Below are positions 6,801 to 55,805 of a stretch of 64,000 nucleotides of DNA, piece after piece. Below the pieces are notes generated by a model. The model ran no database searches. It was not told where the DNA came from and was given only the letters and a program-made list of their open reading frames with translations. The stretch covers positions 33,438,398-33,502,397 of the forward strand of contig NC_092577.1 in assembly GCF_037975245.1 (NCBI RefSeq), written 5' to 3'. Within the stretch, counting starts at the first letter, position 1. Each line of letters opens with the position of its first letter. The stretch comes from Apostichopus japonicus (lineage: Eukaryota > Echinodermata > Holothuroidea > Aspidochirotida > Stichopodidae). Made by a program: the position numbers and the translations under genes.

Positions 6801-9692
6801 CAGACAGGTTAATGAGCACGGTGAATACAAAGAGATGGATGAAAGGGGATTAGTAGACAAGGGATGGAGAGAAGAAAGAAAGAAACCTACAGGGGAAGAG
6901 GAGAGGTAGGAGATAAACAGTGGAGGGACAAAGGGAGGATTAAAGGAACGGGGTAGGGAATAAACTGGAGAAGGACAAAGACAGAAAGGTGTGGAGAGAG
7001 AGGAAAATATATATGTGTAAAAGAAAACATATATGTGTAAAAGTATATATGTGTAAAAGTAAGTTGGCCTGACTTACTTTTACACATTCTCTTGTAACAC
7101 AGGCTCTCTAGTGGAGAAGCAGTTTGCTAACAGTTTTTATTTTATTTTGATATTTACAAAATATATATATATATATGATGCAGTCAACTGAAGAGCTTTT
7201 CAAAATGGCTTCTTGAAAATGATTTTGATTAAGTTTTCCTTCTTCTTGTATGATTTAAATTCAAAATTCTGACAGCATTTCAGTTGATTAGCTTGCCTAT
7301 AGTTGTAAACAATGCTATTAATGATTTAAAACAATTACCAATCCAGACATGATGGACATATGCTACATTGGATCTTGAGCAGCTAAAGCTGATTTTGAGA
7401 CCTAGTTTGATAATCTCTTCTAGGGTCTTGTTTGGGGCCAATGAAAGTAAACTAATTACATGATAACATTTTCATGTATTGATGATGTTGATTTCAGTTA
7501 AAACAAATCTTAGAGAGGGAAAGATAATCCTATTTGTTTTCTCTTTTCTTTCTGTTTTCCATAATTTAAAATTTTTGTCCAATATTTTGTTTCTTAATTT
7601 CTTTTCTATTGTTCCTTTATCATTTTCTTATCCTTTTTTTTTTTTTTCTTCTATTGTTTTCTTTCTTTCTTCCTTTTTTTAAAAATTATTTTATATTTTT
7701 TATATTTTTTACCTGTCTTACAGTCATTGTAAATGAGGGTCTTAGAAAAGATAAGCTCTGGTGATCTTCGCTTATTATAAGGTTGATATTAATAAGTTAG
7801 AAGAGGAAAGTTATATGGTTTAAATATCCTGCTATAGTACTGCATATATACTGTTCGGCAAAAATTAATAAGACCCCGACAATGACTTACACATTCAGCA
7901 AAGATTGCAAAAATTTTCTATACTTTCCTAAAAGCTGTTCATCAAGGGTATCTCCACCATACAACAAACTTACATAGATAAAGAAAAATTGTCGTTCCTT
8001 TGACAGATTATACAGACCAAAGAAACTTCCATCCCTGACATATTGGAGATGGGGTAGAAAAAGATATGAATATAACTGTGGCACGCCAAAAGCGACAACA
8101 AAAAATTGGTAAGAAATTACGTGCACCCAAGTCATTATTTACTGAATTTTTGTCGCTTTTGGCATTCCATATATATCACTGCAGTACCTGTGAGCATCTG
8201 CATAAACTTCTCGGGTCAAGGTAAGAGAACACATACAAGGACAGAGCACGTGGGAGCTGCCGTGTGAAGTCTTCTCTGTCAACCGGTAATCTCATAAGAA
8301 GAATCTTTTGAGCTTGTTGAAGTTGCGAGACTGAGCATCTCTCCATGATGTCTGTCAGAACGTTCCTCTTCTGAGCGTCGTTCCACTTTTCGAGCTGAAA
8401 TGATACATTTGATACCCGCATAAATGGCAGATTCATGATATGAAACAATTTTCGAGCTGAAAATACATGTATCCATGGGCAGACCTACATAGCACAAGAT
8501 ATAAAACAATGAACAAAGTTTAAGAAAAAAACAATCATAACATTTCGAATAAATTGAAAAGAACTTTGCAAAAAAGCAGCGTTTGGTCTATTAACCAATG
8601 CCACCATTATTCATATGTTAAGAGAGCTCGTGGATATCTTAAATTCAGCATTTGCAAAAACCCATCTCCGTCGCCGGAAGTAAAACATTCATAATGAAGA
8701 AAAAAAACATAACAAATTGAACCTCATGTGGCTTGATGATGTCATGATTAGACTTGATCAAGTCTTCAGCAGTATATGAGAAGGATGATTGTATCTGCTA
8801 CATGGAATAAGATGTTTTCCAATCTACAGCTGTTTACAGAATTTTTTCATGATATTTATATCTAGAGCTATATCACATAGAGCAATGATGTTGCTTGCAT
8901 TTGTGTCTCCTATGATATTATTAAGGGGCAGAGGTCTCACTGCAATGCAAGTATATCCTATTGCAGAATTCTAAGTTATCAAACAGTCTAAATAATACAG
9001 GGAAAGACCACATGGGATGGATACTATACTAACAATGTGGGTTCTGTGATAACTGAACATGATATCTATAGTGTTATAACAAAAAAAAGCACACAATAAA
9101 GCATCAAACTCAATTCCATCACACTAATGAAGTTAGTAACACAGAACAAATCCCTTTTTCACTATGGGTAGATAAACATGAAAGGAACTTGCTCACCCAT
9201 TTATTAAGTAATATTCTTCTTTCTTCAAATACCTGGAAAAAAAGGAAAAGAATAGGGAGCCTATCAAAGGTTTAGTTTGTATTTCATGTCATTTCCTTGT
9301 CAAAATAAAGTGTTTAATTCCCCTGAACTGAAGAGTTGACCTTTCTGAAAAAGAAATCAAAAAAGGTATGCACATTTTCAGTCGCGTGGACTGTACTCGT
9401 CAAACTAGCAGATGAGAAAATGTTAATAGAAAATTATGCTAAAGAATGTGTCAAAATGGGAACCACAGAAACAAGTAGTTTAAAAAATTAAACTCAAGTT
9501 ACCTTTTTCTATTCCATTTGTTTTTTAGAAAAATTGAATTGTAATTGTAATGTAACTTTTGTAAGCCTAACGTTACTGTACCTTATCATTAGCTGATGGA
9601 TCACTCATTGGTGTCCAAGCACTAAATCTTATTTTAGAATCAAGATTTTTCTTCTTGTTATCGATTAGCTTCTGTTGGGCTGACCAAGCCAT
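3880..9692 (-). CDS. FBXO16: FBXO16-like F-box protein (7 coding exons)
   Basis: Probable substrate adaptor of an SCF (SKP1-CUL1-F-box) ubiquitin ligase. Coding exons on the minus strand: 9692-9582, 9232-9197, 8394-8188, 6666-6502, 5434-5232, 4655-4499 and 4113-3880. All junctions are GT-AG and the phases add up to 371 codons including the stop. Residues 1-37 include the SAWTPM motif, 38-49 read VFEERRILLNKW, and the F-box spans about 96-140 (LSLYVFSYLDPRSLCRCSQ, then VCWFWKYLTELDQLW). NNYLDN lies at about 228-233 and the tail is basic and Ser-rich. Recalled human FBXO16 (292 residues) shares these blocks in the same order, including the WTP, FEERR, DPRSLCRC and NYLDN motifs. The start at 9692 is the only in-frame ATG that gives the conserved N-terminus. 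The C-terminal end is the weak part: a cassette at 5165-5047 would shift the frame and end the protein early, and a donor-like GTAAGC lies in the last exon. The substrate is unknown. Confidence 0.87.
5047..5165 (-). other. Possible cassette exon of the F-box gene
   Basis: This block is open in the phase left by the preceding exon (AG + T) and has a usable donor (GAG|GTAAAC at 5046). Its acceptor is a tandem TAGTAG with a poor pyrimidine tract, and the intron before it would be only 66 bp. If included, the next exon (from 4655) is read in another frame and stops at 4590-4588, giving a 302-residue protein. If skipped, the frame runs on for 370 residues. Both lengths are compatible with the family; skipping keeps the better-looking C-terminus (YKLKKSRSVS). 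Confidence 0.35.
5705..5830 (-). repeat. Dispersed repeat family A, partial copy
   Basis: Minus-strand copy of a family with the core GATCCTGCTAGGATCGAAAC followed by GTCAGGCCAACTTACTTTTA and ending in a short block with AGCAGTTTGCTAACAGTT. Other copies lie at 6702-7150, 33985-34270, 45585-45715, 53290-53340 and 55465-55805. The core is a perfect 6-bp stem (GATCCT/AGGATC) with a GCT loop. It lies in an intron-side or downstream part of the F-box gene. The class is not identified. Confidence 0.7.
6702..7150 (-). repeat. Dispersed repeat family A, long copy with internal rearrangement
   Basis: The core at about 6718-6752 is followed by a purine-rich body (GACAAGTAACAGTAACAGAA, GGAGATAAACAGTGGAGGGA) running to about 7010. 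A second fragment then gives the 3' block (7030-7145), where the core start is joined inverted to its own end (TAAGTTGGCCTGACTTACTT). This is a nested or rearranged copy in the F-box gene intron between 6667 and 8187. Confidence 0.7.
8085..8163. repeat. Short inverted repeat
   Basis: GCCAAAAGCGACAACAAAAA at 8085-8104 is mirrored by the complement TTTTTGTCGCTTTTGGC at 8147-8163, just downstream (transcript sense) of the F-box exon donor at 8187. The arms lie in the intron and probably belong to a small fold-back transposable element. No coding capacity. Confidence 0.55.
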
Positions 9693-10883: not shown

Positions 10884-11065
10884 ATCCCAGGATTCATCAC
10901 AGGATTCATCCCAGGATTCTGAAGCTATCACAGGATTCATCCCAGGATTCAGATTCATCCCAGGATTCATCACAGGATTCCAATCCTGGGATGAATCTGA
11001 ATCCTGGGATGAATCCTGTGATAGCTTCAGAATCCTGTGATGAATCCTGGGATGAATCCTGTGAT
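10884..11065. repeat. Long hairpin, 84-bp arms, 14-nt loop
   Basis: Position x pairs with 21949 minus x. The arms are 10884-10967 and 10982-11065. The inner 56 pairs (10912-10967) are perfect, and only three mismatches occur over 84 pairs. Each arm is built from short repeats of CAGGATTCATCC plus TGAAGCTATC, and further degenerate repeats continue to about 11115. It lies upstream of the first recognised Staufen exon, either in the 5' flank or in a 5' UTR intron. Confidence 0.95.
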
Positions 11066-11124
11066 GAATCCTGGGATGAATCTGAATCCTGGGATGAATC
11101 CTGTGATAGCTTCAGGTTGGTTTT

Positions 11125-12160: not shown

Positions 12161-15100
12161 ATGGCCAATAACCAACCCTCTGCAAACCCGTCAACTGGGG
12201 AGACTAAGCCCTCACCTGCTCAACAGCCAGGTATCCTACCGATATCAGTAGAGATGATTGCCCTCCAGACAACCGAAGAATGTAAAGAAGGCAACTTGGC
12301 TGCAGTGCAGAGTAAAGGAAGCGGGGATGCTGGTGGTGCCATCAAAGAGGTACCCATACCTTGGGGTTTGTTTACCCATCTTCAGGGGGGGGGTGGGAAT
12401 GATTTATTTGCCCTATCATGGAGAAACTAAATGACCTGGGCACTTCGTCTGTTTAATTATTACCAGATTGTGAAAGAAAATAGAGAGAACGGAAGTTAGT
12501 GCTCAATCAGTTGATAATGCAGAAAATAAATTGTGGAACGTACTAGCATGAAATATGTGCAATCACGAAGAAAATACGGTATGCACTCATGCCCATTTGC
12601 CAGATAATCAAGAAAATAGTGAGGGCAATAGTCATCAAGAAAATAAAAAGGGCAGTTGTGCTCATTTAACCAATCATATGAAGTTAATGAGGCATTTGTG
12701 CTCATTCAGCCGAGATCATGATGAAAAGGAACAGGGCACTGGCAATCATTTACCCGATCATCAGGAAATAAAGAGGGAGATATATAATGCTTACCTGCCC
12801 TGTCATAAAGAAAATAGGGTGGGGGGGGGGCACTACTGCCTGTTCACCCAATCATGAAGAATTAACGGATGCTAGTGACTATGTAGTGGATGCTTGGGAA
12901 AGTAAGGACAAGTGTTAATTTGTGTTTTATTTCCCAAAATTGTTGCACCAATAGTATTGCATTAGATTGCTGTGAAATAAGACTCCTGATGATTTCAAAT
13001 CATGGCGTAATGTTATGATGTCCAAAGGAAAAGGTAAATTGCTTATAGGTGAGGGCAGTCTAACTATTTCAAAGACATGTATGTTGATGCAGCAAAGTTG
13101 AAAAGGATGTGCATGTAACACTTCTTGGGAGTGGTTTAAATGCACCTCATTCAGAATGAGAACGCTGTGCCACACCATTGTTATTGAATTTATGTTGAAT
13201 GTGAACTGATTTCTTGTTGAAATGCTATGTAAAAAACAATTGTCCACATAAAACATTAAAAAAGAATATATAAAGAGAACGTAGTGGCCAATTGGCTAAG
13301 GCGTCGGACTTGTGATTCAAGGATTGCTGGTTCGATTCCTGCCTAGTTCATTACGTTGTGTCCTTGGGCAAGATGCTTTATCTCACTTGCCTCTCTCCAC
13401 CCAGGGGTTAAATGGGTACCTGTGAGGTAACTTGTCATTGGGCGCAATATATAACTGCTGCCGCCTGGAGGGATTGTCTCTGGGACAGGTTATCATTGAG
13501 CAGGGGTAATATAACTTGTAAGCGCTGTGATATGGTTTACCATGAATAGCATAGCTAAATGCCTAATATTATTATTATTATCATTATATAAAAAGAATTA
13601 GATGGAGAAATATTCTTGATGAAGTCGAGTTACTTAATGGTATAATTTACAGCAGTCTTACAGGGTCGCTTTTTTTTTTTCGGTCACAACAGGCCTCTGC
13701 ACCAGGAGCAGCCCAGCAAGAAGGCATGGCAAACTCCAAAGAAAGCACCCCCATGGGCCTCCTCAACTCAGTCGCCCGGTATAACAATATGAAACCCAAC
13801 TATGAACTGATTCAGGAGGAGGGTCCAGCACACCAGAAGATGTTCTCCGTACAACTCACCTTTGGGGACGAGAAGTACAAAGGCACCGGCACCAGCATCA
13901 AGAGAGCCCAGCACGACGCGGCCCAGAAGGCCCTGGACAGCTGCAAGTTACCCACCCCCGAACGGAAGGAGAAACCCACCGGCTACAAGCTGCTTCGATC
14001 GCCAAATAAAAATGCCCTCACCCCGACAGTGCAACTCAACAGCTATTCCCTCAAGACGGGGGTGACCGTAGACTACGCCGTCCTGAACTCATACCCCTCT
14101 TACCCGCCGGGGGGTTTCAGACGGCCCCCGTATCAACAGCATAGATATTCAAACAGCACGACCGCACCACCACCGACGCAAGGAGGAGGAGGCGGCGATT
14201 CACGCCCAAAGGAGCAGGATGGTAATGTCGTGAACACCTTCCATGGAGAACCCAGGCAAGGTAACCCTGTACCGTTCCCCGGACCACCCGCCGGTGGTGG
14301 CGTTGGGCCGAGACCCCGGGGCCCGCGAGGGCCAGGACAACACCATTACAACTACATGCACTATTCACCCTATGAGATGAGGCCAATGTATCGACAGAGG
14401 TACCAAAGTCATTGTATTTTCTTTTTCATGATCTCATGTGCACAGTATTTCCAGTACAAAAATCAGGTTTTCACACCACTTTCGGACATCAAAGGTGAAG
14501 TGATATACTTTATTGAGGAATGGTTCAAAGACATGTTCATTTCATGGAGTTTTTTTTTGTTTTTTTGTTTTTTTTTGGGCAGCTACCTCTATAATATTAG
14601 GCTGACATTAATCAGGCAATATTCTGAGTTATTTGTTAAAAGAAATAGATTCTCTAACATTTTCATGTTGGCAGTTTCCAATGTGGATCCGCAGTTTTCT
14701 AGATGAAGACTCTTGAGACATCACAAAAAAACATTTCCTTTGGAATGTACATCTTTCACGTCACTGACCGGCCGTTTGATACATTTAGGAATCAGACACT
14801 CAATTTTAAACTTCTCCCGAAGAAATTTGAAACACATTATGCAAGGAAGTAAGCTTTTAATTGTGCAGTATTCGAACTACTGTAGTGGATGAGGTTGCAG
14901 ATCTGAGATTGTGATAATCATGAAAGAAAAATTATGATGATAACTATTTTAAGCTGGAAGTAGTTGTATCAGCTCGCTTCTGGCTTTTCTAGACTGTTCT
15001 CGATCCGTATCGTTATGCAATCATCCGATTTGTTTCCAATGCGAGACATGCCTACTATTTCTATTTCTGTAGATATAGACGCCCATATCCCCAGGTGTTC

Positions 15101-18100
15101 AACGTCAAGTTGACGGTCGGAAACCGAGAGTTTGTCGGACAGGGAGCAAACCAACGGCTAGCCAGACAAGATGCCGCCGGTAAGGCTATGAAGTCAATCG
15201 AAGAAAGTCCAATTCCTGTCAAGAAAGATCAGGTGATTTGTCATGTGACCGTTAGATTCTCAGAATGGGTTTTGAACTTTTTTTGGGGAAAAAAATGTAA
15301 ATAGTAGTGATATGTACATAGTAGAACGGGAAAGGAAAACCAGAGAATGGGTCGGACACTAAATGTTGCATCTTTAATGCGATGCTAAACACAGATGGCA
15401 CTTACCAGAAAGATTTTGAATTGCTTTTGAGATTTGGGCAGCAGAGACGCAAGTTGGTTACTCGGAAGTTAAGAAAGAGAGATACCTTTAGGATAGTACC
15501 CTGTTTCACCTCCCGACATCATCTGCCTCCTGGTTCATATCACACCAGGAGTATAGTTGTGGGAAATTGTGAGTGGTAAAGGAAAAAAGTTCCCTCTGGG
15601 TAAATTTGGTACCCTCCAGTAACCCCAGCTTGCTTCTATAATCTTAGTGACTATAGCATTGAGACATTGCCCTAGACTGGAGTGACCCTGTCTCTTCTTA
15701 GAATGCTTCTTTATCTTGCATTTAACAGGCTACATCCATGCTGGAAGAGGAAAAGAAGGAGACTGCCACATCGGGTACGTACCGATACGGCTTCAATTTC
15801 AATTTCAGAAGTGAAGGCTTTTGTTGATTGTTTAAATGGTTGCATGGCACCTGCCTTCAATTGTACTGAACCACCTCAGGAGGTGGTAGATCAGGTAGAA
15901 CTAAGTTGTGACCTCTCAACCTCGGATAGCATTTACCTCATTCTACGACCAGACTGGCCAGTCACTTAACTCTGTCAAGTATTGCTCCTTGTTTGCTTTA
16001 AATTGATTTATTATAGATACTACTTCTTATAAAGTATCCAATCTGCCAATATTTCTTCTTGGGTAAGCTGCCCCCCCTCCCCCCCCCCATGCTCCCCTCC
16101 CAAAGATCCCCTGCAAATTAGGTTGTTCACATTTGCTACAGTTTAAATATAGCCAATCAGTTGTTGACTATATAGAAACTAGAAAAATATTCAGATCTTG
16201 AAGTTCTCTTCCTCTGTCATTGTTAAGCAGGCTATTGTGTTTCCTATTGTTCTGCAGGCTATTGTGTTTCCTATTGTAATCACTATCCAAAAACACAGTC
16301 GTATTCCAAAGGGGAACTAGATGGCATTTTCAACATGTTTCAGTTGCAACGTTAACTTAGGATAATGTAACGGGTATAGTTATGGCCTTAAAGGGTTTTA
16401 GTCTATGCTTACCTGTGAAGGCTTTCCTGCGGAGCGAGGCGTAGCAAAAACAATAGGAAACATACAGGATTTGTTGGGCGCATTAATTACATATATTGAC
16501 AAATTGTCCCACTCCAGACTCTAGACACTTGAATGCCCTCCAAACCTACCAACAATTACAGCTTTGCCTACTGCAACGAATTAACATACAAATAACAGAA
16601 ATAATAATGACATACACAGCGGTATAAATACTTTCAATATGCAAATTAGCTTCGCTTGACAATATCAACAATTTACATAACAATAACATTATGTGGAAAA
16701 CTAGCATCTGATCCTCTGGCAAGCTTTGACATAGAAAATTACATCTTTTTATTTTGTTTGCTCTTTTTAATTATTTCAGCCTCTGGAGATGCTCCCAACA
16801 ATAACAAATCTGAGATTAGCCAGGTTTATGAAGTGGCCAATTTTAATGGACTCAACCTGGAATTTAAGGTAAATTCTAAAGATTTAAAAAAAAATGAATA
16901 AATTGGTCTGGGGAAGTAGTTATTATGTTTCTACAGATAATATGAAAAATGACATTTGAATAGAATGTCGGGGAAAAGAAGCAGTACATAAATTTTTATC
17001 TTTACACTTTATTTTTGTAGAAGTCTGCTACTGAAAATAAAATGTGATCATCATTTGCCGATAATAAAATATGAAAAGATTGTGGAAACAGGAATACTCT
17101 TTAATATTTGTGAAAAGAGTGGATGCAAGAAGGAAACTTAAAAAAAAAAAAATCTATGCTCTCTCTTCACTTGCTACCCTTCAACTCTCTGCAAGATTTC
17201 CCAAACCGATCCAACAAGCTCAAGAATGTGACTGTATTGTAAGAGTATCAAATGCTGTACAAGACTCACAATAGGGGACAATCTAGCTGTATCTTGCTAC
17301 CAACTATTTCTAACAAGATTGACTCCATTAGAAGGGGTTATCAAGAAGCTCTTTTGTCGCCATTTATGTAGGTCCTTGATGAAAGCGGACCTCCCCATCA
17401 GAAGGAGTACAAGATACAGTGCACTGTCGGAAACATCACCGTGGTAGAGACCGGCACCTCCAAGAAGGAATCCAAGCGAAAGGCTGCGGCCGCTGTCCTC
17501 CCGAAGCTAAAGTCCCTCCCACCGCCGGTCAAGACCGTCCGCCAAGGGCCTCGAATGGGTTGGAAGCCGGCGTATAAGAGGTCCACTATACAAAAGAAGG
17601 TTGGTCTACCGCTCTATGTGTTATTCCACTACCGAAAGAAATATGCGAGGAAGTAAATAAAAGTTAAAACAAGATCAAGCAGGTAAAAAGAAAGAGATAG
17701 ATGTTCAAGAAAAGATATTTGTTAAATTGGGATTCCCACGAACTGTGGTTAGGACAGCTCCGTTAGCAGAAACCATGTAGAACGTTTTGGTTTGAGTCAT
17801 GTAGTATCCCGAATAATTTCAGTGCTCTGTCCAAAAATTAAGGGGAAAAATAATTTTTGAATGGAATTATTGTTTTATAAATGATAAATTTGATGCAGAT
17901 ACATTCCAGAAGAGAAACGGCGATATGAAAGCGTAGGACTGATTAAATTACTGATTGAAAATTTCTGATTATATCGTTAAAAGAATGCTTGAGGATATTA
18001 CACTGAATTGGGTTTGGATGACGGAACTGGCCTAACCCTTGAAGGGTTGCAGTTACTCCCTTCCCCCCATCACTTCCCCCACCCCCAAAGAAATGTTGAT

Positions 18101-21100
18101 CTAACGCAGTCTATATTAGTAATATCCTACTGATTATTTGATCAGATTGCATTTGGGGATGTTACCCAATACACTGACTGAGTGGTTTCACTTTTTACAA
18201 ATTTGACAATCTTCTCAAAGCAGTCTTTAAGTATATCTAGTTCAGGGAAGCAGAATACCTTTCATGAGGAAAGACACTGTACTACTGTTGGTCTGTTCCA
18301 CTACATATTAATAGGAGTACCTACAGCAAAGAAAATATATTATCAAGATTGTTTTGCTTCCAGACAGTCCTCCCCTCTTCCCCAACCCCCCCTTCCTCCC
18401 CAGTCTAGTAGTGTTTACATAATCCAGGGCTTACTGGGTAATATTTGTCTCGTCCGTCTGTCTGATCTCGTCCTCAGAGCGCTGATGATTCTGATTTTGG
18501 TGCTTCCAGACACTCTTCCCCACCCCCCTTTCCTCCCCAGTCTAGAAGTGTTTACATAATCCAGGGCTATTGGGTAATATTTTTCTCGTCTTCAGAGCGC
18601 CGATGATTCTGATTTTGGTGCTTCCAGCCAAACTTCCCCAACCCCAGCCCACCTTCCTCCCCAGTCTAGAAGTGTTTACATAATCAAGGACTTACCAGGT
18701 ATTATTTTTCTCGTCCTCAGAGCGCTGATGATTCTGATTTTGGTGCTTCCAGACACTCTTCCCCACCCCCCTTCCTCCCCAGTCTAGTATTGTTTACATA
18801 ATCAAGGACTTACCAGGTATTATTTTTCTCGTCCTCAGAGTGCCGATGATTCTGATTTTGGTGCCGTGGGTATGAACCCCATCAGTCGTCTCGTTCAGAT
18901 TTGTCAGGCCAAGAAGATGAAAGATCCGTTCTTCGAGGTCTTGAACGACCAGCCGATACCCGATCGGAGAGTCCACCCGACAATCTATCGCCACATCTTT
19001 ACCATGAAGGTGAGGGTTCCTCAGAAGTCATGAATATTCAGTAGGATATTACCCGAGTCAGCCAGTTGGGACAATTTCCTAATGCTAATACCTCTCTAAA
19101 CTGTATACCAATATCATGCTCTCAAAGCACTGGTATTGTCAGTACAAACAGTTCCTAACCTTGATCTGATAGAAACATGATATTCACACTGCTTGTACTG
19201 ACAATACGAGTGCTCTGAAGCGGGACATGACACTACAGTATAGAAAAAATTGTCCCAACTGGGTGCCCAAGTCATCCATATTGTAATTTATATGTGACTC
19301 GCTGGGTTCTGTCGTTGTGAAGCGGTTGTATCGGTGTGGTTCTCCGGTCTCGAAATTTAATGCTATTAAGGGATTTCACCGTTTGCAAGTAGGGATTAAA
19401 GTAGGCGCTGGCAATTTTTCTTATTGTTGGTTGTGTGTATTAATGCGAGGAAAATGCAAGTTGGAATTCGATGGTAACCAGTAGATTTATTTATGCACTG
19501 GCACGTCGTTTTGAGAGTGACCAAAATTGTGAGATTCTAGGCCAGAGTTCTTGTTATTTTCATTGCAAGATTTATTTATAGGTCAAGCTTGCCGCAGGGA
19601 GGTTTCCTTTGCTCCTGTGTTCCCATCAGTGTATCTGCAAACAGCATATAAAGATGCTTTAGAGTTTCCAATGTCTTGCAATTAACTATATATATATCAT
19701 CATCATCATAAAGTTGGATCTTGAAAGAGATACTGTGAATAGGAATATATGTGAGTGAAAATAAATAGAGTTAATTTAATAATTACGGATCTGTGAGTGA
19801 GTGAGAATTTGCAGACACACTGTAGGAAAATAACCCAAGTTTTGTTGTACATAATTTGTATCTGGCTGAAGAAAGTAGTAGCAATTTATGAAGTAAGAGA
19901 AGAATTCATTACTTCTTTATTTATTCTTTTATGTATAAAAGTACCACATTGAGTACAAGAAGCCTATTGATTTTGGTGTAGGTCAAAGGTCATTTGGGGT
20001 CACCAGGGGTCCAATTGTGGAACCTCGTAAACACGTTATCTCAAGAAGGGAATCATGGGCAGACCTCATATTTAATGTGTAGAAGTACCACATTGAGTTA
20101 AAGAAGCCTATTGTTTTTGGTGGAGGCCAAAGGTCATTTGGGGTCATCAGAGGTCAAATCGTGAAACCCTTGAAAACATGTACACCCACACTATACATTA
20201 CGTCAGATTCATAAAGAAAACTGCTCATGCTACATCATCAAAACCACAATGCATTTTTGCTCTCTGCTTTTATTTCTTTTTAATTCAGGTGAGTGTAGGA
20301 GAACAATCAGCTGAGGGGAAAGGGTCAACCAAGAAAGAGGCTAAGAAGGAAGCTGCAGAGGGTATGTTGGTCTTGATGGGTTACAAACCCTCCAATCCAG
20401 ACACCCCCATCCCCATTCCTGGTGCAGACGCTACTCCAGGAAAACCTGCTCTCAAACAACCTCAAGAGAACAGAGAAGTGAAAAAGGTAGGTGTATAGGG
20501 TTTCGTGTTGCAGCGTTTTGAGAAGGGGTAAAGGGATGAGGGGGTGAGGGTTGTAAAGGAGCCAGATTGCCCCACCACGTGACTGATGACGAAACCAATT
20601 ACCCATTTCTGTTCATCTGACTCAAAAGAAATGATGAATGGAAATGAGGGAAATTACTCTAAGAATGTGAACGTAGCACCTTAGAAATCAATAGAAAGTT
20701 ACTTAAGTGACAACTTGTTCCTGTCTCTATTCTCTCTTGCCCTCTCTGTCCCAAGTCCCCCCCCCCCCCCCTTCATCTACCCAGTTTGTCGCTAGCTTGA
20801 TTCAAATGTTGTAGAAGTACTTGACACACGATGAGATCATCAGGAAATTTCCACAAATTTTTGCAGAGCAGTCCCCTCTCTCATTCTCATCGCCTAACCA
20901 GTCGTTACTCTTATCCACGGATGATAACATCTACATTGACGACAAGAAATCATTTTATTTAGACCCTTTTTTTCCCCCTCTCTTTTCTAGCAAGAAGAGG
21001 AAGCCCAGAATAATGACAGGAAAGTGACCTTTCAAGATGACCAGGTCAAAGGTAATAAATAATGTTGTCTTGACCTTTCAAGATGTACCAGGTCAAAGGT

Positions 21101-24100
21101 AATAAATAGTGTTGTCATGACCTTTCAAGATGACCAGGTCAAAGGTAAAAATAATGTTGTCTTGACCTTTCAAGACGACCAGGTCAAAGGTATTAAATAA
21201 TGTTGTCTTGACCTTTCAAGACGACCAGGTCAAAGGTAATAAATAATGCTGTCTTGACCTTTCAAGATGACCAGGTCAAAGGTTATAAATAATGTTGTCT
21301 TGACCTTTCAAGATGACCAGGTCAAAGGTAATAAATAATGTTATCTTGACCTTTCAAGATGACCAGGTCAAAGGTAATAAATAATGTTGTCTTGACCTTT
21401 CAAGATGACCAGGTCAAAGGTAATAAATAATGTTGTCTTGACCTTTCAAGATGAACCAGGTCAAAGGTAATAAATAGTGCTGTCTTGACCTTTCAAGATG
21501 ACCAGGTCAAAGGTAATACATAATGTTGTCTTGACCTTTCAAGATGTACCAGGTCAAAGGTAATCATCTCTTGAAATGGTTTGAGGATGTATTACTGTTG
21601 CAATCGACAAATTTATCGAAAGTCATCGTGAAAAGCTGTTTTTCTAAAGTGCAAAGGTGATTATAGAGCTTAACAGTAAGAGTCTTTACAACTTTACATG
21701 TTACAACTGGTGCAGGACATCGTACAGAGTTACACAAATTTATAGGCTAGCAAAATGCTGTCAATGGGCCTCTTTCATTCGATTTATATTCCACAAATAT
21801 TTTCAACCAATATATATATCTATGTTTGTATAGTTCACAGCTATTTTACATTTGACTAGGAAAAGAGTATTAACTGAGCAAATTTGTATTTTGCACATAT
21901 TCCTGTTTAGTAGAAACCATATTGACTACAAATCAAGATAATCATAAAATGGCAAACAAATTTCATCACAATGTCTGGATTAATTCTTTGTGTGTCTAGG
22001 TCAATAAACTAAACTATGACGTGTGTCTTATCTTGACGGAAAGGCATTTTATTCTCTTTCTGGTTTGTTTTGTTAATTAGCAGGCCTAACTGTAAAGAAG
22101 GAAGAAGAGGTGGAGAAACCAGAACTGGTCCCTGGGAGTCAACAAGGTCCCCAGATCCCTGGTATTACACCAGGTCTATTTCCAATGATGCCAGGCATCA
22201 AACCCATTCAACACCCGTTCCCCCAGCAGCCCCCGGTGCAACAGCCGCCAACTCAAGGTATGATGTGATGACCTGATACTTAAATGTTATGACTTGATAC
22301 TTGTGAAGGCCGGATACCACCTACTTATACATATTTAACCTGAGACTTTGACCTGATACTTTCATGTTATGACTTGATACTTGTGATGGCCTGATACGTA
22401 CTTGTGATGACCTGATACTACACATGATAACCTGAGACTGTGTTGACCTGATACTTTCATGTTATGACTTGATACTTGTGATGGCCTGATACATACTTGT
22501 GATGATACTACACATGATAACCTGAGACTGTGTTGACCTGATACTTTCATGTTATGACTTGATACTTGTGATGGCCTGATACATACTTGTGATGACCTGA
22601 TACTACACATGATAACCTGACACTGTGTTGGCCTGATACTTTCATGTTATGACTTGATACTTGTGATGGCCTGATACGTACTTGTGATGACCTGATACTA
22701 CACATGATAACCTGAGACTGTTGACCTGATACTTTCATGTTATGACTTGATACTTGTGATGGCCTGATACATACTTGTGATGACCTGATACTACACATGA
22801 TAACCTGAGACTGTTGGCCTGATACTTTCATGTTATGACTTGATACTTGTGATGGCCTGATACGTACTTGTGATGACCTGATACTACACATGATAACCTG
22901 ACACTGTGTTGACCTGATACTTTCATGTTATGACTTGATTCTTGTGATGGCCTGATATGTTCTTGTGATGACCTGATACTACACATGATAACCTGAGACT
23001 GTGTTGACCTGATACTTTCATGTTATGACTTGATACTTGTGATGGCCTGATACGTACTTGTGATGAGCTGATACTACACGTGATATTCTGAGACTGTGTT
23101 GGCCTGATACTTTCATGTTACGACTTGGTACTTGTGATGGCCTGATACGTTCTTGTGATGACCTGATGTCTACACATGATAACCTGAGACTGTTGACCTG
23201 ATGTTTCATCTTATGACTTGGTACTTGTGATGGCCTGATATGTTCATGTGATGACCTGATCCTTTCATATGATACATATGATAACCTGAGACTGTGTGTT
23301 GACCTAATACTTTCATGTTATCACTTGATACTTTTGATGACCTGATACGTTCTTGTGGACCTGACCTGATCCTTCATATGATAACCTGAGACTGAGTTAA
23401 CCTGATACTTTCATGTTATGACTTGATACTTGTGATGGCCCGATACTTTGTTGTGATGACCTGATATCTACACATGATAACCTGAGACTGTTGACCTGAT
23501 ACGTTCATCTTATGACTTGATACTTGTGATGATCTGATATGTTCATGTGATGACCTGATCCGACATATGATAACCTGAGACTGTGTTGTCCTGATACTTT
23601 CATCTTATGACTTGATACTTGTGATGACCTAATATGTTCATATGATGACCCGATCCTTTCATTTGATATGATAACCTGAGATTGTGTGTTGACCTAATAC
23701 TTTCATGTTATCACTTGATATTGTGATGACCTGATCCTTCATATGATTACCTGAGACAGATGACCTGATATGCTCTTTTGATGACCTGATATATTCGTGT
23801 GACGACCTGTTCCTATGATATGATACATATGATAACCTGAGATTGTGTGTTGACCTAATACTTTCATGTTATCACTTGATATTGTGATGACCTGATCCTT
23901 CATATAATTACCTGAGACTGTGTTGACCTGATATGCTCCTTTGATGTGCTCTTGTGATGACATGTTTCATTTGATGACCTGATACGTTCTGGTGATGACA
24001 TACTCCTTTTTTATTCATACCTAACATTCCTAAACCTTAAATGTATACTTTTTGTAACTCCAGCCAGAAAGTTTCTATTCTGATTTACCTTTAACAGCTC

Positions 24101-25071
24101 TAAACCGCGCTCCTGGTGCACCAGTTTCTACCCCTCTCTCAGCACCCCGTAAGACCTTTAACCCAGCCCTCACGGCAGACATCGCCAGTGAGTTGCTGTT
24201 GACCCAGCGGTCAATGACAGCTCAGACCATACTACAGTCTAGCAACTTGCCCATAAAACTGCAAACTAGTAGACCACAGCACATGCTAGAATATATGGGA
24301 GCTGTGACCGGACTAGATGTAGCTTTCAACGATTATCCACAGGTAGGTAGCCAATAACTTTCAGCTTGCTTGCGATTAATTTCAATCGTATCAGTCATTG
24401 TGCAATCGATAACGATCGATTCGTTCAATGTGCAGTTTGATCAGCAACAACCACCATGGAGTATATATATACAGTGTACATAAAATGTATACTCCATGGT
24501 GGTTGTAGGCCTTAGAAATTTATGGATCTCAGGTTGTCTAATGGCAATCCTAACATGTGTCACCAAGGAAGAAGTTCTGGAAAGCCTAGGCTTGGACAAC
24601 AAATGGTCCAATAAATAATGCTATACATGTTAATAAGACAATATGGGAGCTGTTACCGAAGTATTTTTTTTAACAGTTTAAACAAATACCGCCTTCCGAA
24701 TGTAGAGAGCCTTAACCTTCATCCCAGAAATTTGCAGATTGTCGTTCTCAAGTAGTTATTTTTTTACCACTCAACAAATAAACTCTGCTCCTCAAAGACC
24801 ACAACAAAAATTTTCTTAATTTCAAGATAGGGTTTGTCCATTTATTTCTTGTATGCAACAGAGCACCCAAAACGAATTTTTAACAGAGGTGAGAATATCC
24901 ACGGAACCACCGGTCGTGTTTCACGGGACGGCGCAGACCATGGACGCCGCGCACGATCTTGCCTCGCTGAACGTCCTGCGGGCCTTGGCGGGATGTCCAC
25001 CAGAAGAGGCCAACCGGGTGGTAGCTCAGAATCGTTCCATGGTGCAAGGAATCGGGATAAACTCGCAGTGA
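12161..25071 (+). CDS. STAU: Staufen orthologue, five dsRBDs (12 coding exons)
   Basis: Double-stranded-RNA-binding protein for mRNA localisation, translation control and, in vertebrates, Staufen-mediated decay. Exons: 12161-12349, 13693-14399, 15073-15232, 15729-15774, 16780-16868, 17372-17599, 18839-19009, 20289-20486, 20991-21051, 22084-22257, 24098-24342 and 24862-25071. All are GT-AG and total 2,478 nt, giving 825 residues plus stop. Domains: dsRBD1 about 80-149; dsRBD2 about 170-345, split by an insertion of about 105 residues rich in Pro, Gly and Arg; dsRBD3 377-444; dsRBD4 486-565; a Staufen-swapping-like motif 700-721 (ADIASELLLTQRSMTAQTIL); dsRBD5 733-803. The helix-2 basic motif is strong in dsRBD3 (KKESKRKAA) and dsRBD4 (KKEAKKEAA). 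It is missing in dsRBD5 (TMDAAHDLAS), as expected for a protein-interaction domain. The gene is single and complete, and several of its splice sites sit inside or beside tandem arrays. Confidence 0.96.
12370..12870. repeat. Degenerate tandem repeat, about 50 bp, in Staufen intron 1
   Basis: Diverged copies of a unit resembling GGGCA..TG.GCTCATTTACC followed by CAATCATCAAGAAAATA recur from about 12370 to 12860 (for example near 12590, 12660, 12705, 12750 and 12845). Divergence is high, so copy borders are approximate. The open frame at 12555-12857 is a shadow of it. Confidence 0.55.
13276..13588 (+). repeat. tRNA-derived SINE
   Basis: The polymerase III A box TGGCCAATTGG lies at 13285-13295 and a consensus B box GGTTCGATTCC at 13329-13339. 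A conserved-looking body follows (GTGTCCTTGGGCAAGATGCT), then a tail ending in ATT repeats at about 13567-13588. The body resembles the central domain shared by several metazoan SINE superfamilies (Deu-/Nin-like; from memory, not searched). It lies about 100 bp before the dsRBD1 exon of Staufen. Confidence 0.85.
14400..15072 (+). other. Staufen intron 2, inside dsRBD2
   Basis: Unique-looking intron that splits the dsRBD2 coding region. The frame of the preceding exon stays open for about 100 codons past the donor (to 14706), so an unspliced transcript would add a tail and lose the second half of dsRBD2 and everything after it. Confidence 0.6.
15775..16779 (+). other. Staufen intron 4
   Basis: No internal gene. 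It contains a C-rich run near 16071-16089 and a 25-bp direct duplication (CAGGCTATTGTGTTTCCTAT at 16229 and 16256). It separates a 46-nt microexon (15729-15774) from the dsRBD3 exons. Confidence 0.5.
17600..18350 (+). other. Staufen intron 6, first half
   Basis: No exon or clear repeat was recognised in this part of the intron. The second half, up to the acceptor at 18838, is the tandem array listed next. Confidence 0.45.
18360..18862 (+). repeat. Tandem array carrying a Staufen 3' splice site and exon start
   Basis: Four copies of a unit of about 120 bp: a C-rich stretch, CCAGTCTAGAAGTGTTTACA, then CTCGTCCTCAG, then the first 27 or so coding bases of the next exon. Three upstream copies have pseudo-acceptors whose exon-like parts begin at 18478, 18596 and 18721. 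The fourth is the real exon start at 18839. All four read SADDSDFGA in the native frame. The three decoys end in GCTTCCAG instead of continuing into the exon and have no following donor. Confidence 0.9.
19062..19263. repeat. Fold-back element in Staufen intron 7
   Basis: The outer ends CCAGTTGGGACAATTT (19062-19077) and AAATTGTCCCAACTGG (19247-19262) are inverted. The inner arms AGCACTGGTATTGTCAGTAC (from 19126) and their complement (19193-19214) match with one mismatch, and much of the sequence between is partly complementary. It looks like a MITE or fold-back element of about 200 bp. No coding capacity. Confidence 0.8.
19940..20172 (+). repeat. Duplicated repeat with DR1 nuclear-receptor motif
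   Basis: Two direct copies (about 19945-20045 and 20080-20172) share AGTACCACATTGAG, AAGCCTATTG and AGGTCAAAGGTCATTTGGGG. The first copy has a perfect AGGTCAAAGGTCA at 19980-19992, and the second has AGGCCAAAGGTCA at 20124-20136. A third fragment in the opposite orientation lies at 31026-31080 in ADHFE1. The family is otherwise unidentified. Confidence 0.75.
20487..20990 (+). other. Staufen intron 8
   Basis: Unique-looking intron with a C run at about 20757-20771. It ends in a strong pyrimidine tract and acceptor (CCCCCTCTCTTTTCTAG at 20974-20990). No other feature was seen. Confidence 0.5.
21013..21565 (+). repeat. Minisatellite, 46 bp x 12, grown from a Staufen exon end and donor
   Basis: The first unit is the last part of the coding exon (GTGACCTTTCAAGATGACCA then GGTCAAAG) with its donor GTAATAAAT at 21052. 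Eleven more copies follow at about 46-bp spacing. Most keep the exon end and the donor sequence (CAAAG|GTAATA), with variants such as GTATTA and GTTATA. The period varies by 1-2 bp (ATGTACC, ATGAACC). Reading past the true donor gives GGT AAT AAA TAA, an immediate in-frame stop. Confidence 0.95.
22079..22083 (+). promoter_or_regulatory. Tandem NAGNAG-type acceptor
   Basis: The acceptor before the exon at 22084 reads TTAG|CAG|GCC. Both AGs keep the frame: using the first adds one residue (A-G-L instead of G-L). Such sites are commonly alternatively used in animals. Confidence 0.6.
22262..23995 (+). repeat. Tandem array, about 95 bp higher-order unit, in Staufen intron 10
   Basis: The array begins only four bases into the intron after the donor at 22258. 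The unit consists of variants of a 12-24 bp block: TTGACCTGATACTTTCATG, TTATGACTTGATACTTGTGA, TGGCCTGATAC, GATGACCTGATACTACACAT and GATAACCTGAGACTG. The first kilobase is highly homogeneous; copies after about 23200 are diverged. TGACCT (AGGTCA on the other strand) recurs about twice per unit. Minus-strand open frames over it are shadows. Confidence 0.93.
24343..24861 (+). other. Staufen last intron, inside dsRBD5
   Basis: It contains a perfect 19-bp inverted repeat, ACAACCACCATGGAGTATA (24447-24465) and its complement (24488-24506), with a 22-nt AT-rich loop. No other feature was recognised. The intron splits dsRBD5 between helix 1 and strand 1. Confidence 0.75.
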
Positions 25072-30825: not shown

Positions 30826-33800
30826 CTAATAGACCCTCATTGATTTCTCAAAGAGCATAGAGAGGTCTTCTTCAGTTTGTGGTTTGGGTGCTAAAACTGT
30901 TACCCTTTTCTGTAAAATAAAAACAATATACATTTGAAAAGCTGCTTCTAGGTGACAGTATCACTGGGAGGCTGTAACCAATCCACATCATCATTCAATA
31001 GTATGCAGAGGTGGTTGACAATATCGTGTTTACAGGGATTTCACAATTTGACCCCAAATGACCTTTGACCTCCACCAAAAACAATCATATCTCTTATCCA
31101 AATCACTAAGTGATTGATTGGCTAACTGATTAATTGACTGAATGATTAATTCTTTAGTTACGATATTCACTAAGACCGGGATCGCTAAGTCATTGATTGG
31201 CTAACTAATTAATCGATTGATTCTGTAGTTGGGTTATTAACTAAGACTGGGATCGCTAAGTCATTGACTGGCTAACTAATTAATCGATTGATAGATTGAC
31301 TCTGTAGTTGGGTTATTAACTAAGACTGGGATCGCTAAGTGATTGACTGGCTAACTGATTAATCGATTGATTGATTAATCCTGTAGTTACGTTACATTAA
31401 TCCTGTAGTTAGGTTATTAACTTAGACCGGGATCGATACGTACCTGTGGTAACGTTCCTTTCACTAAAGCTGGTATGTCGTCGGACTTGTATCCAAATTC
31501 AGCGATACCGTTCTCCACCTTCATATCCTGCATGTAGGTTTTAAGGGTATCGGTTAAAATCAGACCTGCATCGTCCTTCTTGGCGTTGGTCACGTCAGCG
31601 CCTGTCAAAGGAAGCGGTTATATGAGCCATTGACAAAATGACGTATGTATTCTATGCACTATCAGCATGTTTAGGATCACAACTAGAACCCCTCCAAGTT
31701 TATAGGTACTGTATTGCTTCTTTGGTGTAATAGTAACAATAACTTATGTATGTATGTATTTTAAATCCTCCTGCAAGCAGGAACTCACGAAGAAGCCATC
31801 ATTGGCTTATCAAAGCCGCAAGCCGACCGAGGTCAGTCTCTTAGATTCATATTTATCGTCCATGATTATGAATTACCAATTGTCAACAACTCTGTAACTG
31901 GACGACATACATTAATATTGGAGTGACTCGAACCGGGGACCTTATGATTGAAAGGCACTGGTGTTAACCTGCGTTAACTTTAAAATTAGACAAGGACTAT
32001 ATGGAGAGTACAGGAATACTACTACTTGGGAACCACACCTTCCTAAATCAAAAAGTGCAGTTAATTCAGGGACCAACAGGTAAGACGGCACTTCAACATT
32101 TCCAGTAGCCAGACCTGTATAAATATCTATACTTGTTTTTATAGCATATTTACCTGTAATCCTACTTTCTCTCCTGGAGTTAATACCAGTAGTAGGAGAT
32201 AGATACTAGTGCAAGACACTTGTACTCACTTTTACAGCCTTGCATTTTTTACTCATACCAAAGGGGAAGTCCACTTTGTCCTGGTACTCATGCGCTGTTT
32301 GTACTCGTAAGTACCCACAGATCTGTTAGCAGCTCAAAGATTCAGAAATCAACAACAATAACACGGACCTTACCTAGCAACCCTGCTGCTTCCAAATGTC
32401 TCTCTGGATTGGACGGAGCTGTAAACTCAAACACTGCTGGAGCTGTTATCACAACAGACAGGCCATGTGGCTGAGAAATATGAAAGTGTGAAAAAGAAAA
32501 AACAGAGAGTTCTGATGAGAGATTTAAATGATTTAAATTAAGAAACAGATTGTGCTAAAGTTTACAAAATAAGTAAAATTTTACAACGTAGATTATTTCG
32601 GGTAGCTGTTTCAGTGCTCCATACATATGATATATGCAGTAGATGATGTTTCTTTTGGGTCACAAAACATGTGCTATTGATTGGCAAACCACCTCCTGCA
32701 TTTTAAGGGTATCATGATGCTAAAACCAAGCCTGCCTCAGTACTACTTATATGCAATGTTGACTAGATTTATGTAGCTCTGGTATAAAAGTATTCTAGGC
32801 CGGTGATTAACGCTATCATGGTTTCATATGAAAGGTGACAGACATATCTACAAAAGTCATTTTCGACAACAGCAGGTTATATTTGTAAGTGTTTTTGAAT
32901 GAGTGAAGATACTACTTTGCAATTATTATCAGTTGTATTCACTGATGAACACAGAATCACTTACAAGTTCAACCTGGTTTAGCCCTCGCTTGGTTTAACC
33001 CCCCCCCTCCCCCCCCCCCCGCTAAAATAATGGTGATTTTCTGGGTATCTGGTGTGATCTACAGAATAACCAAAGCTTTCTTCCTTGTCTTACTCCTCAA
33101 ACTCTTTTGTGAAAGTTTATTCCTGCTGCAGCTGCTTCTTTAGCTAGGTACTTACCACAAGAGCGTGATCCACCTGGTAATCTGAAACTGATCTGTAGGT
33201 ACTTAGAGTACCTAACTAGCTCAGTGGTTAATGCCGGTGCCTTTCAATCATGAGGTCCCGAGAGTTTGAGTCACTCCAAGATTAATTTATGTCATCCAGT
33301 TACAGAGTTGTTGACAATTGACAATTCATAATCATGGACGTTAAAACATGAATCTAAGAGACTGACTTCGGTCAGCTTGTGGCTTTGATAAGCCAATGAT
33401 GGCTTCTTCGCAAGTTTCTCCTTGCATGAGGATCTAAAATACATACATACATACATACTTACCACAAGAGGGTGATCCACCTGGTAATCTGAGGCTTGGT
33501 GTTTCTTCACCATCCCTGATATCGGGTAGGACATGCCATGACTGCAAATAAGGATGAACGAAGGTTAACATATTTTGGTGACCATAATCATATGAGTGCT
33601 ATAAGTCTAAAAGAAAGGAGCCACTTTACAGAAACAAGTTGGATAAGGCACAACAGGAAACAGTGTTACCACATACTAACGTCCTTTACTAACGATGTCG
33701 CAAGTTTGTGATGCGTGTGATAGTAATTAGGAGTTCAAAAGTTCTTTTCTTTTAAGTAAAGCAATGATTTATTTCACATTTCATATTCAAAATCATCTGG

Positions 33801-36800
33801 ATATTAAAACAACAATATGCACCTTCTTGGCTGTTAAATAAAAGATAAACAGATATCGGGAATTGATTAAAACTTACCACAAGTGGACACCAGCATTGCC
33901 AAATCCAACTCCTGCGAAGACACTTGCCAGGTGCATCTGAGATCTGGCTTCAAGGTCTTCCGGGTCATAAACAGCTCTTAGAAGGAAAAAAAAATTCTTA
34001 GAAGGTTCTTCCTTATCCCCTTCCCTTAATCCTCTCTTTGTCCCTCCACTGTTTATCTCCTACCTCTCCTCTTCCCCTGCTGGTTTCTTTCTTTCTTCTC
34101 TCCATCCCTTGTCTACTAATCCCCTTACATCTATCTCTTTGTGTTCACCCTGCTCATTAACCTGTCTGTATTCTGTGCATGTTTTTGTCCCTTCTGTTAC
34201 TTGTCATTTAGCCTTTGAAGAAGATCCTGCTAGGATCGAAACGTCAGGCCAACTTACTTTTACACAAGGTTCAGTACACTATAAAACAACCTTTTCAGTC
34301 ATTATAAAGGATAAAATTACACTATGCAATTAATTTGGTCCAGAGTTATATCAATAGAGGTGTGAGCTACCTGTTATAGGTAACACTCAACATGAGAGCA
34401 AGCATACCCACACACAAACAGCAACTTCATTAGCCTTTAACACAGCGGGCTTGGTACCTACACGTACACATCGTTCAGCAATCGTACTTGTATGCTTAGC
34501 TATAGCAATAGAGGTGTGAGCTTCCTGTTATGGGTAACACTCAAAACGAGAGCAAGCATATCCACGCACAAACAGCCACTTCATTAGCCTTTAGCACAGT
34601 GGGCTTGGAGCCTACTTGTACACATCGTTCAGCTATCGTATTTGTATGCAAAACTACTCGCACTGGGACTTTAAGTACTCAGCTCTAACTGGGTATGATA
34701 TACCCATCCCGACCTACCTGACCTACCTATACACTATACTGCTGCTAGCATAGCTTGGACTTACAAAAGAGATATATAATTTGCTTGCTTCACCTTAACG
34801 GCAATCCACTTTGTGTGGAAAGAAATTAACAAATAAATTAATTAATATTTCCAGCTATGCATCATTGGTGTATTTCATTTATATCTTGTAAAATTCTCTT
34901 AAAATTGACAAATACTTAACTTTATTAAGAATTTTTTTTTTTTACCTTTTGAAGTACTTTTTCAACATTCTAAGAGCATGAGTGGACCAAATATCACTGA
35001 TGGGGTTGCTTCCTTGGTAAGCTGGCCTGTTGATGGGGTTCTGAGGACGGGGTGTTCTCTGATGATAAGGGATGGCCGTGTAGGACTCCAAAGCATGACT
35101 GAATGAAACAAAAACTATTAAAGCATGAGGTATATACTTTTTTTCAAATCTGAAGATTTGTCTTTGAAATCAATATTGCAAATGTGCAAACCAAGACACC
35201 GTCCTATTCAGTTACAAATGTATCTGCAGACGATTTCTGGTCGTAAGTTTAAAATATATATCTGGAGATGTATCTAGATAGATATAGTCAAATTTGGCTG
35301 TTCCAAGCTACAAATCTTTTAAATATCAATGCAGAAAATATTCTGTCCCATATCTAAATGTCATGTTTTCTGTAGGCCCCTAGCTAAAATCCCCTCCCCT
35401 TCTCCAATGTTGGACTAAAGAAACATCTTTAGGTTTTCAAAATTGAAATGTAGACTCACCATAAAACGTCAAAGCCACTGTAGGCTGCCACTTGTGTAGG
35501 CATGTGCACAGTGTGGAGAGGATCAACAATTCCCAGTAATGGACGCAGGGATCTATGAGCTATCCCTAAAAACATTGGAAGAAGTATTCCATTAAAGATA
35601 GTAAGCATTTCTTGGACTGGGGGGCAGGGGGGGGGACACTGTTCAATGATATGACTAGCTAATGCAAAAAGTCACCTTTGTTCTGTAGGGAAATGTACCC
35701 TATAGTCTGCCTTTGAAAAGATCCTGCTGGGATCTAAATGGTAAATCATTATTCATTTTCTAACTTACTTCACTAGCATAACTGTTATTATAAATAAAAA
35801 TAGATGTAATTACCTATGAATACACAAAGAAATAATTCCAAATGGATAAACATGAATAAAAAATTGTCACCTTTTTATCACAGTATGGCATAATATTCAG
35901 GAATATATCCATTGGAGAGTACAGTTCCATGAACAAAAGAACACAGTTCCTTTGCATTAATATGTTAATTATATAAAACTTGTTAATAAGAAAGAAGGCT
36001 CATAGGTTTTAGCACATCCGCTATCAAAGAAATAGATTTTCTCTAGGTTTTTGTGCTTAGGTTTATCAAAATTGAATTAGACAGTTACGGTCCCACGAAA
36101 CACTAGGCTGTCACGTGACAGGATGACATTTACGGAAACAGACCACACTGTAATATTATAAAGGAAGATTAATATTAAATTTGTACTGATATATTTAGGA
36201 TAGAACTGAGATTAAGAAAAAATTACCTGTCTTAGCTTTCAATGGTGTGTAGTCAAAAATGGCGACACCTGTGGTTTCACTACCAGTACCAGCAGTTGTT
36301 GGGACTGTCGTAAGAGAGAGGAAAGTTTGATGGTACACATCAGGCACATTACAAAGGGAGGTAGCTTAACATAAAAGGAGCGGGGGGTGGGGTGGGTGAG
36401 TGGGGGTGGTGGAAGGGAATGTAAGAAATCTGGGCTACAAACAGTAAGGTTTCTACGAATGAGCTAAATTGGATAAAGGCCACCTCATGCACCGTCAATC
36501 CCCCACTCACCCACACACTGCCCAACCCCTCTCCCCCCCCCCCCCCCCCAATGAAGTAGTAGAATACTCACTGGCAATGAGGGGTTTCAGCTGCTTTGTA
36601 ATTGGAAGTCCTTTTCCAATCGGCGCATTCACAAAGTCAAGGAACTCTGCTTCTGAATGACAGGCATAGAGATTAGCTGCTTTACAAGTGTCCATAACAG
36701 AGCCTCCACCAACTGCCAGAAAAGCATCAAACTGATTCTCACGAGCAAAGGAGATGGCTTCCTGGAAGCTGTTTTCAGGAGAGCAGAGAAATAAGTCCTT

Positions 36801-55002: not shown

Positions 55003-55464
55003 GTTCACCGTTAGCTTAGGTGATCGTTTAATAATGTTTCAATCATAGTTCATCCTTTAATACACAGAGCCAGCAATCTACTAACTATTCAGAAAATAAT
55101 GACTATGTACAGATTCAACATTACCAGATAGGCAGTTCACTACAATGTCTGCACATTACTTAAATTGCATATGCACTGTACAGTATGTAGGCCTCCAACT
55201 TTGCCTCTGGCTCTTCTGCTCTCAAGCTTGTCTCTGTGGGACAGGAGTTGCTATACCTGTAAATTGTTAGAAAGTCTTAACCACAGCTGCAATTTTTTGG
55301 ACAATTTATGGGTATTTGAAAGTGGGTGATGGGGGGAGGGGAGGCATTGGGAATGGAGATAAATAGTTTTATTCTCTTTAAGGTCTGATAGAGTATGAAT
55401 GGTTGATGTGTATAAACAGGATGAATCAGATGCTTGGAAAGCTAAACCTGTGAATAAATGTAAA

Positions 55465-55805
55465 GTGTGTAAAAGTAAGTTGGCCTGATGTTTCGATCCT
55501 AGTTCAGGATCTTCTTCAGAGGCTAAATGACAAGTAACAGTAACAGAAGGGACAAAAACACGCACAGAATACAGACAGGTTAATGAGCATGGTGAACACA
55601 ATGAAATAGATGTAAGGGGATTAGTAGACAAGTGATGGAGAGAAGAAAGCAACAGGGGAAGAGAAGAGGTAGGAGATAAACAGTGGAGGGACAAAGAGAG
55701 CATTAAAGGAATGGAGTAGGGAAAAAACTGGAGAAGGACAAAGACAGAAAGGTTTGGAGAAAAAAAGGGGTGGAAGAGAGCTGTGAGAAGAGGAGTGAGG
55801 GGGGG
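55465..55805 (-). repeat. Dispersed repeat family A, minus-strand copy
   Basis: It contains GTGTAAAAGTAAGTTGGCCT, then GATGTTTCGATCCTAGTTCA and GGATCTTCTTCAGAGGCTAA, then the purine-rich body (ACAGTGGAGGGACAAAGAGA). The loop of the core stem is longer here (GAACT instead of GCT). It is similar over its whole length to 6702-7010. Confidence 0.85.

Follow-up and report, generated by a model that had tools for sequence, protein, structure and literature searches.

The closest described relative of the locus reported here is a variable number tandem repeat (VNTR) of the human CBS gene, c.1444_1467+7(16_21), in which 16–21 copies of a 31-bp unit lie across the boundary of exon 13 and intron 13 (PMC2630376); according to a review, CBS activity drops with rising repeat number (PMC5188458). 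A second CBS variant, 844_845ins68, is described as a duplicated intron/exon junction with competing splice sites near an exon; the more distal site is much preferred there, so that the mRNA is normal (PMC2630376). Tandem duplication of AGGT-containing segments has also been put forward as a route to intron gain (Rogers model), with ATP2A1 and with 24-bp exonic repeats and 24-bp multiples in fission yeasts as cases (PMC4974935). Here we analyse a window of 64,000 nucleotides from the holothurian Apostichopus japonicus (NC_092577.1, forward strand, positions 33,438,398 to 33,502,397), in which a 46-bp minisatellite repeats the 3' end of a coding exon of a Staufen gene together with its 5' splice site (donor).

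Like the CBS VNTR, as far as it is described in the sources cited, the Staufen unit straddles a coding exon end plus donor and occurs in many near-identical copies. It comprises 27 exonic and 19 intronic bases, against the 24 and 7 bp that can be read from the name of the CBS unit. The two repeats differ in that CBS copy number varies (16–21) and tracks activity in those accounts, whereas the Staufen array is known from one haplotype; moreover, the Staufen donor overlaps the poly(A) hexamer AATAAA in seven of twelve copies and is followed by an in-frame TAA. The CBS 844_845ins68 junction resembles a second array of the same Staufen gene, which repeats an acceptor (18466–18864), but it is a single duplication and not an array. 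In the AGGT intron-gain model, too, a piece of exon that carries splice signals is duplicated in tandem (PMC4974935); the Staufen intron, in contrast, most likely pre-existed, with the array at its 5' end. The Staufen donor array is unusual, but its kind is already known from the human CBS VNTR. Among the titles listed in searches aimed at further junction minisatellites with repeated donors, none names such a case, and other cases may well be in print.

Results

Tandem Repeats Finder (TRF) describes the array with a period of 46, 11.7 copies, 94% matches and a score of 969, which is far above chance (Table 1). Copy 1 consists of the final 27 coding bases of the exon (21025–21051) and 19 intronic bases, and across the copies the unit is made up of 27–28 nt matching the exon end and 18–19 nt matching the intron start. 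Copies 1, 8 and 9 are identical, and the mean pairwise identity over copies 1–11 is 0.948. An earlier annotation made from the letters alone (hereafter the sequence-only reading) had let the minisatellite begin within a Staufen exon and had called it homogeneous. The TRF array and the open gene model, by which the exon is real, bear out the former statement, the identity values the latter. The same reading had assigned about 39 coding bases to the unit; this number has to be reduced to 27, because the bases preceding TGACC, i.e. those before 21025, do not match the unit. Likewise, of the span 20991–21565 given for the feature, only 21025–21564 belongs to the array itself, and 20991 is the start of the exon. 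With a coding exon end plus donor in its tandem unit, the array has the layout of an exon-boundary VNTR of the CBS 31-bp kind. Possible decayed copies outside it are not distinguishable from chance: 914 of 1000 shuffles reach the score of a 13th copy downstream, and 577 of 1000 that of a copy in the stretch upstream.

The gene model was obtained by joining exons at AG/GT boundaries with matching phases, its 5' end not being established. The product contains dsrm in three stretches (Pfam, 2.8e-42) and Staufen_C (4.4e-22; residues 647–747 of the 773-aa model), and it matches the human STAU1 chains 6htu (2.7e-33) and 4dkk (4.2e-17) in the PDB. With several double-stranded RNA-binding domains and the Staufen C-terminal domain, it is a Staufen protein. 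The 61-nt exon at which the array starts is bounded by TAG/CAA and AAG/GTAATA, with phase 0 at its start and phase 1 at its end; it has the purine-rich start GAAGAGGAAG, and its 3' end reads AAG/GTAATAAAT. Since the 773-codon reading stays open, the native donor is probably used often enough for the gene to stay constrained. Elsewhere in the gene, a tandem acceptor AGCCAG at 24062–24067 precedes a Staufen exon for which the model requires the later start.

Table 1. Features of the Staufen locus (positions in the window)
Feature	Position	Strand	Remarks
Staufen gene model	13693..25071	+	11 exons; AG/GT boundaries and matching phases; 773 aa, no internal stop
Staufen exons 1–6	13693-14399, 15073-15232, 15729-15774, 16780-16868, 17372-17599, 18839-19009	+	
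Staufen exons 7–11	20289-20486, 20991-21051, 22081-22257, 24068-24342, 24862-25071	+	
Staufen exon, 61 nt	20991..21051	+	QEEEAQNNDRKVTFQDDQVK plus one base; last 27 nt are repeat copy 1
46-bp minisatellite	21025..21564	+	12 copies, last truncated (TRF)
Native 5' splice site AAG/GTAATA	21052..21057	+	sequence, gene model
In-frame TAA	21060..21062	+	met by 11 of 11 alternatives that skip the native donor
11 downstream donor copies	21099..21565	+	G of GT at 21099, 21145, 21190, 21236, 21282, 21328, 21374, 21420, 21467, 21513, 21560
Acceptor of next exon, tandem AGCAG	22079..22083	+	alternative exon starts 22081 and 22084 keep the frame (sequence)
Mirror acceptor array	18466..18864	+	118/125/118-bp units with small differences (TRF and sequence)

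The element CAAAG/GT is present in all twelve copies, i.e. at the native donor and at each of the eleven downstream ones, seven of which are identical to the native donor from −3 to +6. When pairing energies with the U1 end were computed, nine of the eleven reached at least the native value of −6.6 kcal/mol, the two weaker ones being 21190 (−5.7 kcal/mol) and 21282 (−4.1 kcal/mol). The native donor itself belongs to the weaker of the gene's ten donors and ranks seventh by U1 energy. A scan of 6140 intron bases of the Staufen gene, which left out its three arrays, found 9 of 358 GT sites with native energy or better, among them 21657, which lies further along the array's own intron. Sites with the native U1 energy are about 12 times denser in the array than in the gene's other intron sequence, the copies not being independent of each other. 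These data agree with the sequence-only reading, according to which all eleven downstream copies keep the exon end and mostly the donor (AAAGGT is found in 11 of 11) and the spliceosome meets a ladder of near-equal sites. In the gene's other intron sequence, decoy donors of this strength are sparse.

The further claim that use of any later donor adds an in-frame TAA is also correct. Because the exon leaves in phase 1, a transcript that skips the native donor reads G/GT AAT AAA TAA, and all eleven alternatives run into the stop at 21060, their exons being 108–569 nt long. Only the first of the twelve donors keeps the Staufen protein intact. Three coding exons follow this TAA, which places it upstream of at least two junctions, and by the standard rule nonsense-mediated decay (NMD) is predicted; with a premature stop and three exons downstream, all eleven extended exons have the form of poison exons. 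A product that survived from a skipped donor would end in QVKGNK and would lack the Staufen C-terminal domain.

A mirror image of this arrangement is found at an acceptor of the same gene, where the repeat units carry the acceptor plus the first 26 coding nt of exon 18839–19009. Acceptors thus repeated stand at 18478, 18596 and 18721 in addition to the native 18839, and from phase 0 each of the three upstream acceptors meets a stop codon ahead of the native exon. To judge from the reading frames, only the site adjoining the intact exon body would be productive in either junction array.

The hexamer AATAAA overlaps the native donor at +3 to +8 (21054–21059). The composite element GTAATAAA, in which the donor is joined to AATAAA, occurs in seven of the twelve copies and at just one further site on the plus strand of the window (seven of eight sites in the array), and three more copies show ATTAAA, TATAAA and AATACA at the hexamer position. 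AATAAA as such is found 69 times on the plus strand of the AT-rich window (38% GC). The gene's other introns hold seven sense AATAAA, none of which is closer to a donor than +29. GT content after the array hexamers is 0.53–0.55, compared with a mean of 0.48 (sd 0.09) at other AATAAA sites. A eukaryote-wide survey reports counter-selection of intronic AATAAA, strongest where a weak 5' splice site is adjacent (PMC5499120); because of this, an amplified donor/AATAAA overlap is unusual and goes against the rule.

Signs of function were sought in donor and exon changes, in folding and in the placement of arrays at junctions, and none was found that holds. Changes were counted in copies 2–11, i.e. 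without copy 1, which is the exon itself, and without the truncated copy 12, and amounted to 14 in all. Donor positions carry 3 changes in 90 site-copies versus 11 in 370 elsewhere in the unit (Fisher p 0.74). The donor positions are thus at least as variable as the other positions, and selection on the extra donors is indicated in neither direction. Nor is the exonic part of the unit significantly better conserved (4/240 versus 10/220 changes, p 0.10). With only 14 changes, modest selection might escape notice.

The whole array folds better than its dinucleotide shuffles (z −6.04, 0/100); the folding of single units and of a two-copy piece is unremarkable against shuffles (z −1.07, −1.07 and −1.58). 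Among 300 six-copy arrays assembled from shuffled units, 34 equalled or surpassed the folding of a six-copy consensus array. The fold score thus reflects mainly the repetition itself, and RNA structure as a function of the array was rejected. A possible hairpin that hides the donor by means of the next copy reaches −10.5 kcal/mol, versus −1.0 kcal/mol without that copy, but the mean probability that the native donor is unpaired falls only from 0.57, when a single copy is folded in silico, to 0.41. Several of the copy changes disrupt this hairpin, as can be read from the copy sequences.

For array placement, ten large arrays, hand-picked and partly merged from the 51 TRF rows of the window, were compared with the 21 Staufen exon edges. 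Under random placement, an overlap of at least two junctions is ordinary (P 0.37), and three within 10 nt have a P of 0.13. In three of ten arrays an edge lies no more than 30 nt from an exon edge (P 0.005); other cut-offs give one of ten at 10 nt (P 0.13), and three of ten at both 50 nt (P 0.019) and 100 nt (P 0.077). One of the three junction-near arrays depends on a merger of the main array, which starts at 22336, with a small 21-bp repeat at 22263. A preference of arrays for splice junctions is not claimed, because the thresholds were chosen after the data had been seen.

Several other repeats and coding stretches of the window were recorded. The intron after exon 22081–22257 holds tandem repeats rich in TGACCTGATACTT (22263–23946): the 21-bp repeat, with 1.9 copies, starts five bases past the donor's first base; the main array has a 95-bp period. 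The 46-bp unit contains the nuclear-receptor half-site AGGTCA in a near-DR1 form; outside the ten arrays AGGTCA occurs 36 times, versus 23 expected from base composition. A 79-bp array (31102–31416) is located about 27 nt past the GTACGT donor of a minus-strand exon, which we take to be an ADHFE1-like C-terminal one and which itself has no Pfam or PDB match; an exon near 36629–36812 matches Fe-ADH (1.7e-12). The minus-strand exon 8176–8484 encodes an F-box protein (Pfam F-box-like, 5.8e-08). At 13278–13350 there is a tRNA-like stretch (Rfam RF00005, 35.3 bits; no ARAGORN call), perhaps the head of a short interspersed nuclear element. The members of a dispersed repeat at 6711–7073 (−), 33971–34333 (+) and 55251–55850 (−) have open reading frames that share several stretches, for example one of 11 residues. 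Two facing GGATTC-type arrays at 10884–11107 have consensus units that are reverse complements of each other and could form a long hairpin. Relatives of three exons and of one repeat-unit pattern were found neither in a viral nor in a genome contig collection, neither of which is meant to cover animals.

Discussion

Any explanation has to accommodate the anatomy of the array, the near-equality of its donors and the obligatory in-frame stop behind all but the first. The one we favour, with middling confidence, is a by-product minisatellite that causes at most a passive leak into nonsense mRNA, with a possible copy-number effect on dosage. In this scenario a tandem duplication that took in the 3' end of the Staufen coding exon and its donor would have grown into the minisatellite. 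The direction from exon to intron is suggested in part by the RKVTF (PP1-docking) motif encoded here, which vertebrate Staufens presumably share. The native donor probably prevails even so, since it is the first to be transcribed and no other donor yields the usual 61-nt exon with the purine-rich start. A fraction of transcripts may take a later donor and include the TAA; these would be lost by NMD or yield a Staufen cut short ahead of its C-terminal domain. The net effect would be a loss of output that depends on copy number, as with the human CBS 31-bp VNTR, for which the primary paper is said to report alternative donor use, and not a regulated switch.

Several points weigh against a leak. 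Use of any later donor is its unproven step, the changes in the donor copies point to selection in neither direction (3/90 versus 11/370), and exons of 108–569 nt may simply be ignored by exon definition. Furthermore, among equal competing donors the intron-proximal one is often favoured, which would predict heavy misuse. The main rival is a neutral minisatellite without measurable effect on Staufen output: exon definition and transcription order would fix the native donor, and the later ones would be passed over. We regard this as a serious possibility, though a distinctly less probable one than the leak. It fits the donor changes, which are neither depleted nor enriched in copies 2–11 (p 0.74), and the richness of the window in tandem repeats, in which two or more junction overlaps arise readily by chance. 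What it has to explain away is the roughly twelvefold density of native-energy U1 sites in the array, and the fact that the 9-nt site does not distinguish the native donor from seven of its eleven copies.

The sequence-only reading had gone further and proposed that the ladder could act as an on/off switch, in which donor choice would tune Staufen through NMD. The stop common to all later donors and the similar behaviour of the mirror array, where three of three upstream acceptors lead to a stop, would suit such a switch; the donor positions, however, are at least as variable as the other positions and the six-copy fold is matched by arrays of shuffled units, so that the idea is unsupported and appears improbable to us. 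About equally improbable is a ladder in which U1 and the cleavage/polyadenylation machinery compete at each rung, premature polyadenylation giving a truncated Staufen that ends in QVKGNK. The composite element in most copies, with hexamer variants in three more, the slightly raised GT content behind it and the amplification of AATAAA beside a weak donor, counter to the survey cited above (PMC5499120), speak for it; on the other side, AATAAA is common in such AT-rich DNA, the GT excess is below one standard deviation, and the poly(A) signals would be suppressed by the equal U1 sites that share their rungs. As U1 pairing covers the same +3 to +8 bases as AATAAA, splicing and premature polyadenylation would be mutually exclusive at a given rung. 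Carried to its end, and then hardly probable, this proposal makes each of at least seven rungs a two-way switch between the two outcomes, with copy number setting the share of full-length to truncated Staufen and, together with the mirror array, a gating of the gene at both places by junction minisatellites whose alternative sites are all poison. An assembly artefact by collapse or expansion of copies is very improbable: three copies are identical, but the others differ in substitutions and indels, the array measures just 540 bp, and its first copy has a firm anchor in an intact exon.

A ladder of up to twelve near-equal donors of which the first alone is productive constitutes a natural test of spliceosome choice between identical 5' splice sites, and a gauge in vivo of the reach of first-come or exon-definition rules. 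With donor and AATAAA on the same bases, U1 protection and cleavage become testable on one element. If copy number varies, the array would be a length-coded dosage allele of a factor of RNA localisation and decay.

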